22,240 nucleotides of DNA, taken from a virus. This document shows positions 7,724-22,240 of the stretch, piece by piece. The notes under the pieces were generated by a model. The model was not told the DNA's origin. It did not search any database and worked only from the letters and a program-made list of their open reading frames with translations. The stretch is from positions 1 to 22,240 of IMG/VR virus record IMGVR_UViG_3300027917_000185; one strand, written 5' to 3'. The position numbers were made by a program, and so were the translations under genes. Each line of letters opens with the position of its first letter. The first letter of the stretch is position 1.

Positions 7724-9478
7724 ATGGGCACAACACTTTTTGGAAAACAGATTAATCAGACATATGATGGTTTGATTAAGACAACAGATAATGACCCTAT
7801 AACAAGTGAAAAGAAATTAACTGATGGTTTGGGTAATGAAATACCTATGTTTGTTTCACAATCAGGGGTCAAATTCACGGGGGTAGTTAATCTTGCGGGT
7901 GTCACCAGTTATGTCGGTGCGCCGTGGGCAACATCCGCACAACTTGCAACTCTTCAAGGTGAGGTTGATACAAATACTGCGGACATATTAACCATATCAG
8001 GTGATGTTATAACAAACGCAACAAATATTGGAAACGAAGAAACTGCACGAATAAATGCGGATAGTGTTCTTCAAGGTTATATTGACGACTTGGAAGCGGG
8101 TGTTGGTAATGTGATTTCAGTTAATAGTTTGGATGGAGGTATAACACTATCAGGTGGAACGAATGTAAGTATCACAGACAACGGAACAGACACTATAACA
8201 ATATCTGCATCAGGCGGAGGGGGAGGTGGAGCCGTGGATGATGTGAATGGTTTGACAGGTAGTATAACCTTATCATCAACGGATTTGGATTATTTGACTA
8301 TAACTGAAGTCGGTAATGATATTCAATTTGAAGTTCTTGAACAAAGAACAATAACTGAAGATGTGAAAAATACAACTACGGGGACACTTTCAAAAGGAAC
8401 ACCCGTTCATATCACAGGTTCAACAGGAAACGAAGCCGAAGTTATTCCAGCAAACGCATCCACAGGACTTGCTGCACACTTGGTTCTTGACCAAGATTTG
8501 AATGCGGGACAAACAGGTAAGGCGGTTGCTGTTGGTTTCATTAATAATGTCTTTGTTGCCAATATGACAAACTTCCAACCTGGTCAAGAAGTATATCTTG
8601 CACCATCAGGGGGTTTCACACATATCAGACCAACAGGGACAAACATAGTTCAATATCTTGGTGTTGTTGTCAAGGCTTCGGGGACATCAGGCCCTGGTAC
8701 AATATCAGGTATAATACAAAATTTGGGTGTTGAAAATGAACTTCCAAATCTTCAACAAAATTATATATGGTTGGGTGATAGTAATGGAGTTCCTCAAGCG
8801 GTTGATTTTGCACCTTATACGGGGGGGACAGGAAGTGGAGTAAGTTCTTTGAACACATTAACGGGTGGATTAACACTATCAGGTGGAACTGATATAACTA
8901 TAACAGACAACGGAACAGATACTATCACAATCACTTCAACAGCAAGTGGAGGGGGTATATCTTGGAATGGTTCAACTGCGAATGGTATTGCGACATATGG
9001 TTCATCAACAACCGCAGATGTTGAAAGTAATTTGACTTTTGATGGTTCAACCAATTTATTAACCTTATCAGGTGATTTTTCATATAACGGAGGTTTGTTG
9101 CCACAGGTTCCAACGGGGACTGATTATACGGGTGAAATATCACCAAGGCTTGGTTCATCATTAACTATAGGTAAAGTATATTATATGAACTCAAGTGGAA
9201 CTTGGGTAGTGGCGGACAACACAGCGGAAGCGACAACACTTCCTATGTTGGGAGTTGCTATATCAACAACAGAGGTATTAATTTATGGATATATAGCAAA
9301 TGCTGCATACGCAGGTTATACAACAGGAACACCAATATACTTGGACGCTGGAGGGGGTATAACAAATGTAAGACCGACAACATCAACTCACTTCATAAGA
9401 AAACTTGGTTTCTGTTATGATGGTTCAACAAGGGTTATACATTTCAATCCATCAAACGAATATTATGAAATTGCATAA
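7724..9478 (+). CDS. Tail fibre / receptor-binding structural protein with internal duplication
   Basis: This 584-residue protein begins with a short anchor-like region (GTTLFGKQINQTYDGLIKTT), a form seen in fibre-like genes of Bacteroidota phages. Residues 70-125 form a helical, probably trimeric coiled region. Two Gly/Thr-rich beta repeats follow at 133-170 and 375-411, both containing the core DNGTDTITI. Each is succeeded by a similar domain: residues 213-335 (with GQEVYLAPSGGFTHIRP) and 472-575 (with GTPIYLDAGGGITNVRP). Poly-Gly linkers (GGGGGG at about 164-169) separate them. This modular pattern fits a surface fibre evolving by domain duplication. It lies between the connector and another adhesin-like gene. 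Which receptor it binds cannot be told. Confidence 0.65.
   Translation: MGTTLFGKQINQTYDGLIKTTDNDPITSEKKLTDGLGNEIPMFVSQSGVKFTGVVNLAGVTSYVGAPWATSAQLATLQGEVDTNTADILTISGDVITNATNIGNEETARINADSVLQGYIDDLEAGVGNVISVNSLDGGITLSGGTNVSITDNGTDTITISASGGGGGGAVDDVNGLTGSITLSSTDLDYLTITEVGNDIQFEVLEQRTITEDVKNTTTGTLSKGTPVHITGSTGNEAEVIPANASTGLAAHLVLDQDLNAGQTGKAVAVGFINNVFVANMTNFQPGQEVYLAPSGGFTHIRPTGTNIVQYLGVVVKASGTSGPGTISGIIQNLGVENELPNLQQNYIWLGDSNGVPQAVDFAPYTGGTGSGVSSLNTLTGGLTLSGGTDITITDNGTDTITITSTASGGGISWNGSTANGIATYGSSTTADVESNLTFDGSTNLLTLSGDFSYNGGLLPQVPTGTDYTGEISPRLGSSLTIGKVYYMNSSGTWVVADNTAEATTLPMLGVAISTTEVLIYGYIANAAYAGYTTGTPIYLDAGGGITNVRPTTSTHFIRKLGFCYDGSTRVIHFNPSNEYYEIA
8121..8225 (+). repeat. Fibre repeat unit 1
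   Basis: This coding repeat encodes NSLDGGITLSGGT, then the DNGTDTITI core and a Gly-rich linker. It pairs with 8841-8955. Identical stretches include 19 bases (8142-8160 = 8871-8889) and 17 bases (8174-8190 = 8903-8919). A degenerate related stretch (GLTGSITLSSTD) sits at about 8236-8335. Confidence 0.8.
8841..8955 (+). repeat. Fibre repeat unit 2
   Basis: This is the second copy of the fibre repeat, encoding NTLTGGLTLSGGT, DNGTDTITI and a Ser/Gly linker. It is about 730 bases after the first. The DNA similarity is high enough for recombination between the copies, which would delete one whole fibre domain. Confidence 0.8.
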
Positions 9479-11305: not shown

Positions 11306-11429
11306 AAAAGAACAGATGGAAAATAAGGGGGTAAGAAAGAAAGATATTGACTTCCTCAAGGGTGAGATACATAGATTGAACGAAAAGGTCAAGGCACTAT
11401 GTGAAAACCCGAAACAGGTTATATCATAA
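11280..11429 (+). CDS. Small charged helical protein (49 aa), unknown
   Basis: Start choice is uncertain. ATG 11280 follows an A-rich tract (AAAACAAAAAAAGATAGTA) and overlaps the holin-like gene by 26 bases; ATGs at 11286 and 11316 are alternatives. The product is highly charged and predicted to be one long helix (KKDIDFLKGEIHRLNEKVKA), probably a coiled coil, with one Cys near the end. It could associate with the neighbouring membrane protein. The gene ends 6 bases inside the convergent minus-strand gene. I do not recognise the family. Confidence 0.5.
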   Translation: MGMTKRILEKEQMENKGVRKKDIDFLKGEIHRLNEKVKALCENPKQVIS

Positions 11430-11597
11430 GTTATACTTACGGGCAAACTGAATATGAATAGGTTCATCATCCGTATATCCAATACTCTTAAAAAAGTTTG
11501 CGACCGCATCTTTTTCCTCTTGGGTTATTGGTAGTTCTTTCATATAATGATTTTCTCTTTCTCTTGAATGTGGAAATTTTATTTTGTGTTTTGTCAT
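11424..11597 (-). CDS. Lone minus-strand small protein (57 aa), unknown
   Basis: This is the only convincing minus-strand gene. It reads MTKHKIKFPHSRERENHYMK at the N terminus, then ELPITQEEKDAVANFFKSIG, and ends DEPIHIQFARKYNL. It is helix-rich and soluble, with no Cys. The composition (no poly-Ser/Cys/Ile bias) is unlike the shadow ORFs opposite + genes. It converges on the 11280 gene with a 6-base overlap. Its start lies 6 bases from an AT-rich palindromic element at 11603-11623, and its start codon is inside a TTTGTCATA motif shared with sites near the repressor candidate. Being opposite to everything else, it may be expressed at a different stage, for example early or in a dormant state. 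Function unknown. Confidence 0.6.
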   Translation of the reverse strand: MTKHKIKFPHSRERENHYMKELPITQEEKDAVANFFKSIGYTDDEPIHIQFARKYNL

Positions 11598-11602
11598 ACC
11601 CG

Positions 11603-11623
11603 AAAATATAAAAATTATATTTT
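11603..11623. promoter_or_regulatory. Perfect AT-rich inverted repeat, possible bidirectional -7 pair
   Basis: AAAATATA, five bases, then TATATTTT forms an exact 8-bp inverted repeat. On the minus strand TATATTTT lies 6 bases before the 11597 ATG, giving a near-leaderless transcript. On the + strand TATATTTT would start a transcript of about 80 bases ending at the terminator at 11706-11712. Promoter function is inferred from similarity to TAnnTTTG only. Confidence 0.35.
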
Positions 11624-11669
11624 TGATTGTAGTATGTTGCTATTTTAGTGCAATAGTTTATTTTTGGTT

Positions 11670-11712
11670 CTCACCCTGAAGTTTCTCCTATTTCTTCAGG
11701 GTGAGTTTTTTT
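11670..11712 (+). terminator. Strong rho-independent terminator
   Basis: A perfect 12-bp stem, CTCACCCTGAAG / CTTCAGGGTGAG, has a 12-base T/C-rich loop and is followed by seven T. It reads only on the + strand; the minus side has no T tract. It would stop transcripts of the structural operon and isolate the regulatory genes downstream. Confidence 0.9.
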
Positions 11713-11718
11713 ATACCA

Positions 11719-11738
11719 TTTGTCATAGTTTTGTCATA
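11719..11738. promoter_or_regulatory. Tandem TTTGTCATA repeats, candidate operator
   Basis: TTTGTCATA occurs at 11719-11727 and again at 11730-11738, 11 bases apart start to start, about one helical turn. A third copy lies at 11590-11598 across the start codon of the minus-strand gene. Direct repeats spaced by one turn suit a ribbon-helix-helix dimer pair such as the product of the 11823 gene. The binding link is an inference. Confidence 0.4.
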
Positions 11739-11772
11739 TTCATTACTTTATTTTACTTTTTAATACTTTTTG

Positions 11773-11780
11773 TATATTTA
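11773..11780 (+). promoter_or_regulatory. TATATTTA box before the repressor/replication genes
   Basis: TATATTTA lies 43 bases before the ATG of the RHH gene and 35 bases after the TTTGTCATA pair. The -33 position is T-rich but has no exact TTTG. The leader would include the A-rich tract before the start codon. It is a likely promoter for the 11823-13828 gene run because the terminator at 11670-11712 cuts off upstream transcription. Confidence 0.4.
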
Positions 11781-11822
11781 TAGATGTGAGACAATCACAT
11801 TAACTTTCTAAAAACCAAAAAA

Positions 11823-11996
11823 ATGAAAGACAAAAAAACTATTCACATTCCGACAGGGTTGCACGAGGAATTCAAAAAAGAGTGCAAGAAAAGAGGTTTG
11901 GTATTACAATACCATATGGAGCGTATGATAATCAGACAACTTGATGAATGGATTATTGAAGAGCGTGATAATCAACAATACGGACAAGGGTTATGA
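11823..11996 (+). CDS. Ribbon-helix-helix DNA-binding protein, candidate repressor
   Basis: This 57-residue protein reads MKDKKTIHIPTGLHEEFKKE, then CKKRGLVLQYHMERMIIRQL, then DEWIIEERDNQQYGQGL. A short basic beta strand (KKTIHIP, 4-10) is followed by two amphipathic helices, the layout of Arc/CopG-type ribbon-helix-helix repressors, which bind DNA as dimers on tandem sites. The start is preceded by AAAAACCAAAAAA. Its stop overlaps the next start (ATGA). Tandem TTTGTCATA repeats lie about 85-105 bases upstream, suggesting autoregulation. It is the first gene of the replication region, which fits an early control protein. Another short alpha/beta protein is possible but less likely. Confidence 0.65.
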   Translation: MKDKKTIHIPTGLHEEFKKECKKRGLVLQYHMERMIIRQLDEWIIEERDNQQYGQGL

Positions 11997-12286
11997 AAAG
12001 AGAAGAGTATATCATCTATAAGGATTGGGGGTTTGGTGATGTATATATGAACTTAATATATTCATACATCAAAGGGTTTCCAAAGGACGCCGCATGTTAT
12101 GTATCAAACGAGAAACTATCAAGTTTGATGGGCTGTTCCATAATGACCATAAAAAGAAAAATCAGAGAGTTGGAAGAAGGGGGGTATATCAGAAGAAATC
12201 TTACTCAAAACAGACAGATAAGATACTTGAATATCACCAAGAAGAAACCTCAAAGATTTGAAATTAACGGGGAACAAATCATATAA
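11993..12286 (+). CDS. Winged helix-turn-helix protein (HTH_36-like), replication/regulation
   Basis: This 97-residue protein contains the pattern of HTH_36 domains used by phage and plasmid replication proteins: DVYMNLIYSYIKGF (about 16-29), then CYVSNEKLSSLMGCS (about 35-49), then MTIKRKIRELEEGGYIRRN (about 51-69), where the second helix and wing contact DNA. The C terminus is basic (KKKPQRFEINGEQII). It is short for a full replication initiator and lacks any catalytic domain, so it could be an initiator or a regulator. Start overlaps the RHH stop by four bases. A gap with palindromes follows before the helicase. Confidence 0.7.
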   Translation: MKREEYIIYKDWGFGDVYMNLIYSYIKGFPKDAACYVSNEKLSSLMGCSIMTIKRKIRELEEGGYIRRNLTQNRQIRYLNITKKKPQRFEINGEQII

Positions 12287-12378: not shown

Positions 12379-12492
12379 ATGAAAATGATTGAACTTTGTG
12401 TGAATGGAATATCCAAATTTGTTCCGTTTCACTACACAAATTTTTCCATTCACAAGTCCAATCTTAAAAAGAAAAAAAACCAAACAAAATGA
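12379..12492 (+). CDS. Possible 37-aa ORF upstream of helicase
   Basis: The ORF reads MKMIELCVNGISKFVPFHYT, then NFSIHKSNLKKKKNQTK. It has an A-rich leader (AAAATAAAAATAAAAAG) and a stop overlapping the helicase ATG (ATGA), the same coupling seen at most other junctions here. The basic tail (KSNLKKKK) could bind nucleic acid. However, the ORF contains a strong stem-loop at 12399-12454, so it may instead be a leader whose translation or structure controls helicase expression. Its small size and lack of known family make it uncertain. Confidence 0.45.
   Translation: MKMIELCVNGISKFVPFHYTNFSIHKSNLKKKKNQTK
12399..12454. other. Long imperfect stem-loop (possible origin or leader structure)
   Basis: TGTGAATGGAA (12399-12409) pairs exactly with TTCCATTCACA (12444-12454), and inside it AAATTTGT (12415-12422) pairs with ACAAATTT (12436-12443). 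One side has a 5-base bulge (tatcc), and the loop is 13 bases. No T tract follows, so it is not a terminator. It may be an origin hairpin, an RNA control element or a protein-binding site. Confidence 0.65.
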
Positions 12493-13691
12493 ATTATGAT
12501 AATTTACTATTAAAAGTGATACTTGAAGAAGGGGGTTTCTTCAAGAGGTATTCATCACAGATTAAAAAACTCCAATTGGACAACAAACATTTCAACTTCT
12601 TGTTGAATATCATCAAAGAACACTATGACGAATATAAGGTTGTTCCTGATTATGACATACTCAAAATTAAACTCACAGAGGAACTATCCAACGAACAGAT
12701 GGTGAAGGTATTAACCGACACCATTACATTTCAAATAGAAGAACGCAAAATAAGTGAGGGGGACATTAAGTATATCAAAGACAACTTGGTTCAACGAATA
12801 CAAAATAGTATGATTAAACAAGCGATGAATAATTTGGATAAGGGTAAGACAGATGGACTACATAACGACCTCAAGGAAATAGAAAAGGTTTCATCTTCAA
12901 CTGAAGAGTATGAAATCAAAATGTTGTGGGACTATGATGAACAATTGGAAAGAGAAGTTATTCCAACGAATATACCTATGGTGGATGAAAACGGCGGCGT
13001 AGGAAGGGGAGAAATAGGAATATTACTCGCTCCAACAGGTGTTGGTAAGTCAGTATTTCTTTCATACTTGGCAAACAATTTTATGTTGGGGGGTTCAAAG
13101 GTTCTCCATATTGTATTTGAGGGGGCAACAAACGACTATATCCGTCTCCATAGGGTCAAGTTAGGCAACCCGTCAAATGATATGTTAAAGAGGGGGAAAA
13201 CGACCTCAAACCTGAAGGTAGTTAAGATGCACTCGGGCAAGACAAACTTGTATGATATACAGGACTTATTGGACAGGTTCAAAGATGAGGGGTTTGTTCC
13301 TGATGTGATATGTCTTGACTATCTTGATTTGATTGCACCAACCAAAGTGAAGAAAGAAAGTTGGATGTCTGAAATTAATACTTCCAACGAACTTGAAGAG
13401 TTTTGCTGGAGAAACCATATTGTATTTTGGACGGCGGTTCAAACCAACAGGTCTGGTCTTAATAATGAAATACCAACACTTGGACAGATTGCTGGTAGTG
13501 TCTCCAAAGCACAGAAGGCTTCTATGATACTTGGACTATCAAGGAACAATCTTCAGATTGAAGACAACACCGCAGATGTTGCAATCATCAAGAACAGATA
13601 TGGTAAGACAGCAACAGCAAACAATTGTCTGTGGAACCCCGACGAAATGAAAATAAATATAACACCAAATGAAAATATAATACTCGGATGA
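12489..13691 (+). CDS. dnaB-like: DnaB-like replicative helicase
   Basis: This 400-residue protein is predicted to unwind DNA for replication as a RecA-fold hexameric ATPase. The first 150 residues are helical and would form the N-terminal domain. The Walker A motif is LLAPTGVGKS (179-188) and the Walker B region is VICLDYLDL (273-281, Asp277). A basic patch follows with QIAGSVSKAQKAS, then ILGLSRN, and the C-terminal NRYGK fits the arginine/lysine finger region of the family. It is shorter than bacterial DnaB (about 470). No primase or polymerase is encoded nearby, so host proteins must be recruited. It is coupled to the upstream ORF (ATGA) and to the next gene at 13688. Confidence 0.82.
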   Translation: MNYDNLLLKVILEEGGFFKRYSSQIKKLQLDNKHFNFLLNIIKEHYDEYKVVPDYDILKIKLTEELSNEQMVKVLTDTITFQIEERKISEGDIKYIKDNLVQRIQNSMIKQAMNNLDKGKTDGLHNDLKEIEKVSSSTEEYEIKMLWDYDEQLEREVIPTNIPMVDENGGVGRGEIGILLAPTGVGKSVFLSYLANNFMLGGSKVLHIVFEGATNDYIRLHRVKLGNPSNDMLKRGKTTSNLKVVKMHSGKTNLYDIQDLLDRFKDEGFVPDVICLDYLDLIAPTKVKKESWMSEINTSNELEEFCWRNHIVFWTAVQTNRSGLNNEIPTLGQIAGSVSKAQKASMILGLSRNNLQIEDNTADVAIIKNRYGKTATANNCLWNPDEMKINITPNENIILG

Positions 13692-20157: not shown

Positions 20158-22240
20158 TACAAATAGAAATAGAAGGGGTGTTCTTGGACTTATACGACCT
20201 TGACCCTCCAAAATTAACATTAAGTATTGAAGATATATTAACAACTCAAACGACGACCCCTTATACCAAAGAGTTCCGTGTTCCTGCATCAAACAACAAT
20301 ACCGAACTATTCAAAGATTTGTTTGAGGTTAATGGTTATGACTTTGATGTCTCACAAGAAAGACCTGCAACCATCTTATATAATGGACAAGAGTTTGTGA
20401 GGGGTGAAATACGAATTAACAATATCTATAAAAATCATAGAACCAATAAGTTTGACTATGGTTTGATTTTTATTGGTGCGATAAGGGACTTCTCAAATAA
20501 CTTGGGTGAAACCCCCCTATGTGATTTGGACTTCTCTGATTGCGGACACGCTTTGACAAAAGCCAATATTGAAACAAGTTGGAACGCATACCCTGAAGGG
20601 GGTCTTAATGATGGATTATTCAACGGATGTGTTCTATATCCACTTGTTGATTTTGGAAACACCTATGACAGCAATATTGACCCTATTGAAGGTGTTATAC
20701 AAAACGGGGGGACATATGGTTTCACATCATCTTCAAATGCAATTGAATTAACTTATTTCAGACCTTGTGTGAGGGCAAAAGATATTATAGATAAGATATT
20801 TGCAAACGCGGGTTATACATATACTTCAAATTTTCTTGAAACAAGTCTTTTCAGACATTTGTATGTTGGCGCTTGGGGTGATGATAATGAATTTGAGTTG
20901 AACCCCTCTTTTTATGCGTATCCAAATACAATAGAACCAATTTATACATCAACAGGTGAATTTGTTGTTAATATTGATGAAGCAACAAATAACACAAATG
21001 ATTGGAACTTCATAACCAATAGATATGTCGTTCCACAAACGGGAGTATATGATATATTTGGACTTATATTAACAAATAATTTTTGGATTGACCCTCAAGA
21101 CCCAGGGCCGAAATCTGTTGAATGGACAACAAGATTGTATATTGCAGGAAACCCGACACCTATTGCCACAAATGTTCAAACTATTGAAAGTGATGGAAAC
21201 GCTTCAACAATTGGTATAACAAATGTGAGTGTTAATGATTATTCATTCACGGCGGGTGAAGAACTATATATCACATTAGAAGCAACCAACTCTTCAGATT
21301 GGGGTGGTAGTGATTTGCTTCCAAGTTATGGTAGTTCATTACAAACAAAGTTTGGAGTAAGATTTGAACCATCTTATAATGTCGGAGCGGGGTTAAGTTG
21401 TGAGTATTCACAGATACAATTTATAAGAGACATATTAACCAAATTTAGATTGGTTATGGTTCCTGATAAGTTTGACCCCTTAAACTTAATTATAGAACCC
21501 TGGAAGGACTATATTGGTTCGGGACAAGTATTGGATTGGACAGAGAAATTGGACTTAAATAAGGACATCCAATTGAAAGCGTTATTTCTTGAACAGAAAA
21601 GTGAAATTGACTTTTTAGATAAGGAAGGTAAGGACTTTTTAAACGCAGAAAATGTTAATGCGTTTGACGAAGTATATGGAACACTCAAGGTAAGACCAAA
21701 CAATAAATTATTGGAAGGTGATAGGGAAATCAAGACGGAGTTTGTTCCTGCAATTGTAAGACAGATAGATGGTTCATTTGAGGGGACTGCAGGTATGGAC
21801 AATACAATCATACCTCAAATATATAACCCCGAAGTTGAACAAGATACTTCAGGGACAGCAAAACTTAAGAAAAGTCCTGTTGTTCCAGGTGTGAGGTTAT
21901 TTTGGTATGATGGTTTGAAACATACGGGGACACTTGCGGCAAGAGACAGGGCTTGGTATATGAAAGACACATCAACTAACTATAGTTTCACAAAGTTTCC
22001 TATGATTTCACAATTCAACGAATGGGGTGATAGGGATGATAGTTGGCAAGGTGTTGATACTCAAACAATTGACTTATGTTGGCAAAGAGAAAACACATTC
22101 ATAAGATTTGATTTGGCAAATGTTAATTTGGGACTATCCGTGTATGATGTATATTGGTCTGATTATATTGAATTGATATATGATAAGTCCTCAAGAAGAT
22201 ATACGGGTTATTTCATACTATCTGCGGAAGATTTGAATGA
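20154..22240 (+). CDS. Tail hub/baseplate-like protein, N-terminal part (continues at position 1)
   Basis: The gene starts in an ATGA overlap and is still open at the right edge. Joining base 22007 to base 1 gives 766 residues, 618 before the join and 148 after. The N terminus (MIQIEIEGVFLDLYDLDPPK, then YTKEFRVPASNNNTELFKDL) and DFGLIF/YGLIFIGAIRDFSN fit the hub or distal-tail family of Bacteroidota phages, in which the protein inserts beta strands into the tail tip. Later parts contain ILTKFRLVMVPDKFDP and FFWYDGLK-like aromatic stretches (LFWYDGLKHTG). It sits between the 462-aa tail protein and the tape measure, as a hub should. The C-terminal part is listed at 1-447. Confidence 0.8.
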   Translation, partial: MIQIEIEGVFLDLYDLDPPKLTLSIEDILTTQTTTPYTKEFRVPASNNNTELFKDLFEVNGYDFDVSQERPATILYNGQEFVRGEIRINNIYKNHRTNKFDYGLIFIGAIRDFSNNLGETPLCDLDFSDCGHALTKANIETSWNAYPEGGLNDGLFNGCVLYPLVDFGNTYDSNIDPIEGVIQNGGTYGFTSSSNAIELTYFRPCVRAKDIIDKIFANAGYTYTSNFLETSLFRHLYVGAWGDDNEFELNPSFYAYPNTIEPIYTSTGEFVVNIDEATNNTNDWNFITNRYVVPQTGVYDIFGLILTNNFWIDPQDPGPKSVEWTTRLYIAGNPTPIATNVQTIESDGNASTIGITNVSVNDYSFTAGEELYITLEATNSSDWGGSDLLPSYGSSLQTKFGVRFEPSYNVGAGLSCEYSQIQFIRDILTKFRLVMVPDKFDPLNLIIEPWKDYIGSGQVLDWTEKLDLNKDIQLKALFLEQKSEIDFLDKEGKDFLNAENVNAFDEVYGTLKVRPNNKLLEGDREIKTEFVPAIVRQIDGSFEGTAGMDNTIIPQIYNPEVEQDTSGTAKLKKSPVVPGVRLFWYDGLKHTGTLAARDRAWYMKDTSTNYSFTKFPMISQFNEWGDRDDSWQGVDTQTIDLCWQRENTFIRFDLANVNLGLSVYDVYWSDYIELIYDKSSRRYTGYFILSAEDLN
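22008..22240. repeat. Right copy of 233-bp terminal direct repeat
   Basis: This matches 1-233 except for tg in place of aa at 22052-22053 and g in place of c at 22142. The first change gives Ile to Val plus a silent Gly change; the second is silent in Val. Differences of this kind suggest two related viral genomes in the sequenced population rather than sequencing noise, which would hit coding positions randomly. Confidence 0.9.

Follow-up and report, generated by a model that had tools for sequence, protein, structure and literature searches.

The closest described systems are small ribbon-helix-helix (RHH) repressors of phages and plasmids and the DNA sites of host response regulators; to our knowledge, little is known about early transcription control in small Bacteroidota phages. 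The Arc repressor of phage P22 is, like the protein described here, a small phage-encoded RHH protein of about 50 residues, and it binds neighbouring subsites about 11 bp apart. The Arc operator, however, is pseudo-palindromic and overlaps its promoter, whereas the repeats at the present locus are direct and lie upstream of the promoter, and the present protein matches Arc-like families below threshold. Omega (pSM19035) and CopG/ParG are RHH autoregulators that head replication or maintenance operons and occupy half-sites side by side, which is the arrangement that we propose here. Omega dimers bind heptad repeats in this way (PMC4803016); these units are 7 bp long, whereas the spacing at the present locus is 11 bp and plasmid functions are absent.

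Host regulators offer a second kind of precedent. A Pho box is built of two directly repeated 11-nt units, with CTGTCAT in E. coli (PMC4415409), and PhoB and OmpR-family sites share with the pair described below the 11-bp direct repeats and a TGTCAT core, but the probable host phylum shows no enrichment of the 11-bp spacing, and the window (the whole 22,240-nt stretch of DNA analysed here) carries no recognised phosphate gene. In cyanophage S-PM2d, host PhoB binds the replication genes (PMC10976474), which are preceded, as at the present locus, by a putative host regulator site, although the host phylum and the Pho-box sequence (PyTTAAPyPyT/A) are different.

Genome context and the early operon

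The window, a virus record, is 22,240 bases long, of which 1328 are noncoding. Its two ends (1–233 and 22008–22240) share an overlap of 233 bp (98.7% identity, a few differences), so that the window probably represents an almost complete genome with circular permutation, the overlap representing either a terminal repeat or a circular assembly with sequence variants. The phage is small, and its host probably belongs to the Bacteroidota, because a Shine-Dalgarno-like word is absent at 22 of the 24 gene starts, the leaders are A-rich and the early promoter box is close to the Bacteroidota −7 consensus TAnnTTTG (PMC7366714). From 10899 onwards, a small gene is followed by a holin gene (identified by its match to Pfam Phage_holin_10), a minus-strand gene, a strong terminator and a tandem repeat pair; then come the early promoter and the genes for the RHH protein, a winged-HTH protein and a DnaB-like helicase.

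The RHH gene occupies the same place at four related loci (L002, L030, L004/L022 and L006). The RHH proteins of L004/L022 are 46–49% identical to that of the window over the aligned part and that of L006 about 31%, and those of L002 and L030 carry a C-terminal extension. Relatives were not found when the RHH protein or the helicase served as a single-protein query against IMG/VR, nor among named phages by tblastn with the RHH, winged-HTH and 7147 products together with a distant DNA search; a capsid-protein query for prophages in genomes of the Bacteroidota phylum yielded two distant matches only.

The intergenic region 11598–11822 is best explained as the control region of an early replication operon. 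The operon comprises the RHH gene (57 aa, 11823–11996, plus strand), a gene for a winged-HTH replication-initiator-like protein (97 aa, 11993–12286, plus strand; Pfam HTH_36 at 3e-10, PHROG replication initiation at 8e-9), whose identity is 87% to L004, 61% to L002 and 48% to L030, and a gene for a DnaB-like replicative helicase (12489–13691, plus strand; PHROG 19 at 4e-54, Pfam DnaB_C at 5e-11). Within the control region, an intrinsic terminator with a 12-bp perfect stem and a T7 tail (11670–11712, plus strand; ΔG −20.6 kcal/mol, z −6.0) closes the upstream plus-strand (late) transcripts and insulates the early control region. This inverted repeat was missed by an automatic terminator scan because its loop is 12 nt long. 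In L002, L006 and L030, too, a terminator-like hairpin stands upstream of the promoter of the RHH gene.

The early promoter (11751–11782, plus strand) consists of a −33-like TTTTAC followed by the −7-like TATATTTATAG. Its box is conserved in relatives: TATATTTATDG is kept ahead of the RHH gene in the window, L002, L004 and L006, L030 has TATATTTATAA, and the box TATATTTAT is common to the window and all four relatives. In the window, TATATTTAT occurs on the plus strand at 459, 5627 and 11773, which is 13, 26 and 50 bp ahead of genes 472, 5653 and 11823, respectively, and it recurs in several related contigs; from this pattern, the boxes are likely to form a phage promoter set. At the expected transcription start lies a 17-bp palindrome, ATGTGAGACAATCACAT (11784–11800, plus strand). 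L002 has a palindrome of the same place and length, ATGTGGAAAGTCCACAT, in which both sides are changed; the element is also present in L030, weak in L006 and absent in L004. It is a candidate either for a rival operator or for an mRNA 5′ hairpin.

A long hairpin separates the winged-HTH gene from the helicase in four phages (window 12384–12470, L004 6390–6478, L002 17539–17639 and L030 1140–1230). Across these divergent phages, 7 of the 17 consensus pairs show compensatory changes and an unpaired AUCC-type bulge is kept, and a covariance model gave strong scores in the same four only, among 30 related loci. Rfam gave no match, and this hairpin has no family there. It is a candidate replication origin hairpin or mRNA leader.

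The first gene of the operon encodes a probable RHH protein

The sequence-only reading had assigned the 11823 product to the RHH family, which we consider very probable from family matches and modelling. Every match in Pfam and NCBIfam was under cut-off, as was that to the PHROG Arc-like repressor (0.008), and ParG, at 0.28, was a sub-threshold match among PDB sequences. Short divergent RHH proteins often fall below curated family cut-offs, and the RHH proteins of the relatives have sub-threshold matches to Arc-like, ParG and RelB/DinJ families. In the AlphaFold2 monomer (mean pLDDT 76), residues 1–10 are extended and helices are predicted at 11–24 and 28–54, which agrees with the RHH layout of a short N-terminal strand followed by two helices in about 45–60 aa; the strand itself is expected only in the dimer, and the model is of a monomer. 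The top-ranked PDB matches from Foldseek were RHH proteins (AmrZ, ORF56, StnY, Arc, CopG and CdbA), with E values of at least 0.6 that are individually not significant. After realignment of the structures, omega, PutA and TacA were among the RHH matches, and Z values went up to 5.6, with RHH antitoxins, ParD, omega and PutA at the top.

A tandem repeat upstream of the early promoter

Between the terminator and the promoter lies the tandem direct repeat TTTGTCATA-GT-TTTGTCATA (11719–11738, plus strand), with an 11-bp period, a candidate operator that ends 12 bp upstream of the −33 region. The sequence-only reading had reported the 9-mer at these two places, 11 bases apart, and a third time across the start codon of the minus-strand gene; exact copies are indeed found on the plus strand at 11719–11727, 11730–11738 and 11590–11598. 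Counted over the whole window, the 9-mer occurs five times against 0.83 expected, a total reached in none of 100 dinucleotide shuffles. The two extra copies are on the minus strand, at 8563 and 14419, both inside genes, where 1.5 would be expected from amino-acid sequence and codon use; because they match this expectation, the real excess is the pair in the intergenic region 11598–11822. An exact, non-low-complexity 9-mer pair with a period of 11 arose in 0.25% of dinucleotide shuffles of this 225-bp region, and any exact 9-mer pair with a period of 9–13 in 1.1%, both figures being post hoc since the region had been picked by an earlier reader. The window contains three such repeat pairs, of which 11719/11730 is the sole intergenic one. 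We regard the pair as probably a genuine site of protein binding; its likeliest ligand is predicted to be the 11823 RHH protein, and a host regulator of the OmpR/PhoB type is the main rival binder.

We propose, at a probability of about 0.45, that the RHH protein acts as an autorepressor of the early operon through this tandem pair. The ribbon of the RHH dimers would fit the near-symmetric TGTCA core, and dimers would bind both copies side by side. The bound protein, together with further dimers or contact with RNA polymerase, would then turn down the early promoter once the RHH protein accumulates, and the outcome would be a simple negative-feedback timer on the replication genes; control of the minus-strand gene and a two-state switch form no part of the proposal. 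Repression of its own operon had also been suggested by the sequence-only reading, and in the window the layout is as expected for an autorepressor, with the RHH gene heading the operon and non-random repeated half-sites beside its own promoter; the exact repeats, however, do not extend to the relatives. The tandem also lies upstream of the promoter and not over it, the conservation of the start-site palindrome in two relatives is equal or better, a family of large phages, described below, keeps the tandem without an RHH gene of the L094 type, and RHH-like neighbours were not seen among the frames listed beside the tandem in cellular contigs, all of which argue against an operator of the RHH protein.

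Conservation of the site in relatives

The exact TTTGTCATA pair is absent from all four relatives that keep the RHH gene. A degenerate tandem, scored on the 18 fixed bases of TTTGTCATANNTTTGTCATA across the whole contig sequence of each relative, gave a different picture for two of them: the best match in the contig lies ahead of the RHH gene in L004/L022 (15/18; Markov chance 0.001) and in L006 (14/18; Markov chance 0.011), whereas the 12/18 found upstream of the RHH gene in L002 and L030 is background. The match in L004 lies on the other strand, overlapping a −7-like box (TATATTTG) of a divergent gene, and just one half of the L006 match is recognisable. The likeness of the site to the tandem appears to fall with the likeness of the RHH protein, because the predicted DNA-contacting strands, KTIHI in the window, RTIHI in L004, STIQA in L006 and ANVKM in L002 and L030, parallel the tandem scores.

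These comparisons bear on an alternative that we regard as doubtful, although likelier than a host regulator, namely that the pair is a lineage-specific coincidence in AT-rich promoter-upstream DNA and that function resides in the conserved promoter and 17-bp palindrome, the latter being either the RHH operator or an mRNA 5′ hairpin. Coincidence would account for the loss of the exact repeats from every RHH-keeping relative, and the tandem also makes a chance −7-like box, TAGTTTTG; the palindrome, moreover, has the same place and length in the window and L002 and is similar in L030. Yet it is missing from L004, whose RHH protein is the closest, and chance explains poorly both the rarity of a period-11 exact pair in the shuffles and the recurrence of a contig-best tandem match at the equivalent place in L004 and L006.

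The tandem word in other phages and in cells

Across IMG/VR, the exact 11-bp tandem was found in 23 contigs, which correspond to about four independent loci. In phages of the L094/L134 type, TTTTGTCATACTTTTGTCATACTTA stands directly upstream of a 49–52 aa RHH-like gene, and the gene upstream of the tandem presumably encodes a T4-type tail sheath, which it resembles. This apparently T4-like family keeps TTTTGTCATACTTTTGTCATAC perfectly ahead of an RHH-like gene that is unrelated to that of the window; TTTTGTCATACTTTTGTCATACTTA is identical between the two lineages though their flanks have diverged and the identity between their RHH proteins is 67%. Such conservation may independently support a link between RHH proteins and the tandem, with a bias towards tandem conservation in that the loci were found by the exact pattern. 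In the large-phage family (L063, L065, L076, L086, L098, L115, L119, L155, L158, L165 and L167), TATTTGTCATAATTTTGTCATAA is kept with diverged flanks about 140 bp upstream of a gene of 392–395 aa (MTTF...), and the L094-type RHH gene had no match in the same contigs; this tandem is possibly a host response-regulator site. A looser scan of IMG/VR for tandem copies with 0–6 bp gaps returned at least 119 entries, mostly within open frames, and counted by cluster the 11-bp spacing was not preferred among the matches listed, so most such loose pairs are due to chance.

In cellular genomes, the TTTGTCATANTTTTGTCATA tandem occurs in 63 contigs, often between genes, and no RHH-like neighbour was seen among the neighbouring frames listed. 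Some neighbours we take to be PstS or phosphate-selective porins (L199 and L215). In five Bacillota contigs (L175, L176, L186, L200 and L229; four titled Lachnospiraceae), the tandem lies ~80–125 bp upstream of the gene for a related membrane-anchored protein (MDKKKW...), and the word thus appears to be in repeated use among cellular genomes.

It is conceivable, although we judge it improbable, that the tandem in the window is itself a Pho-box-like site for a host response regulator of the OmpR/PhoB type, through which the early operon would sense a two-component signal such as phosphate starvation. The cyanophage, whose replication genes are under host PhoB, makes the idea a reasonable one. 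TTGTCATAGTT-TTGTCATATTC forms a pair of direct 11-bp repeats whose core is CTGTCAT-like, as in the E. coli consensus. The idea also agrees with the 63 cellular contigs, in some of which TTTGTCATANTTTTGTCATA is beside genes resembling those for phosphate uptake, and with Gammaproteobacteria (274 genomes, the class of a SAR92 MAG), where 7 of 12 TTGTCATA pairs have an 11-bp period (p about 0.0001–0.003). The phage, however, looks Bacteroidota-specific by its gene starts and A-rich leaders, and in that phylum the 11-bp spacing is not enriched: it accounts for 14 of the 150 TTGTCATA pairs listed, over nine spacings, in 395 genomes from the phylum to which a Chitinophagales MAG belongs, the one inferred for the host of the phage. 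Among the Bacteroidota-phylum pairs listed, periods of 9 bp (30/150) and 15 bp (32/150) were commonest. The upstream regions of 30 pstC loci in Bacteroidota-phylum genomes yielded no TGTCA pair, a Bacteroidota Pho box was not obtained from pstC loci, and the phosphate link of L184 (Bacteroidota) amounts to one porin-like neighbour. The likely host phylum seems not to use the 11-bp TGTCA tandem word as a Pho box.

A broader scenario, to which we give very little weight, is that unrelated phages converged on the tandem TTTTGTCATA, which would be read by dissimilar RHH autorepressors, possibly because the word also fits a host OmpR/PhoB-type site; phage repressor and host stress regulator would then compete for a single element, coupling phage replication to the nutrient state of the host.

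The minus-strand gene and the third copy

Both 57-aa frames named by the sequence-only reading exist, the RHH gene on the plus strand and a second frame at 11424–11597 on the minus strand. By tblastn and alignment, the latter belongs to a small conserved family with members in L004 (5082–5270, minus), L006 (5623–5775, minus), L007 (5005–5178), L008 (2837–3022) and L013 (11237–11422). The family motif is GYxxxxxIHxQFxxK, and the gene is encoded on the minus strand in the window, L004 and L006, whereas L007, L008 and L013 carry it on the plus strand. The product of the window's gene forms two short helices in its AlphaFold2 model and had no PHROG family match.

The third copy of TTTGTCATA (11590–11598) lies over the start codon of this gene and reads TATGACAAA on the gene strand, that is, T followed by ATG ACA AA(A), or Met-Thr-Lys. 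Because a Met-Thr-Lys start dictates much of its sequence, this copy is largely explained and probably coincidental. In the L004 orthologue the equivalent position reads TATGCCAAA (Met-Pro-Lys), and no comparable site was found at the L006 minus-gene start. The start of the gene is 122 bp from the tandem pair, with the terminator in between. As the terminator is located beyond the minus-strand gene, late plus-strand transcripts would run antisense to it, which is possibly a simpler link to late transcription than repression from the tandem pair.

Lysogeny genes (an integrase or an opposing repressor pair) were not recognised among ten window proteins scanned, a set that did not include all structural genes; the only match of this kind was a weak, coiled-coil-type 'integrase' match of the 13770 product (E 0.008). 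We can hardly credit the full model of the sequence-only reading, in which the RHH protein, bound at all three sites, would repress its own operon and the minus-strand gene alike as a developmental switch: the three exact copies do flank two divergent genes and the position of the minus-strand gene is conserved in L004 and L006, but the third copy is a single half-site that follows from Met-Thr-Lys and has no counterpart in L006, the pair is distant and behind a terminator, and the scanned proteins included no recognised integrase or further repressor.

Implications

An RHH operator word that matches a Pho-box word calls for caution in operator prediction. If the autorepressor reading is right, the promoter, the tandem operator and the 57-aa repressor would together constitute a short element that sets the timing of replication, and this compact regulated promoter would be usable in Bacteroidota.
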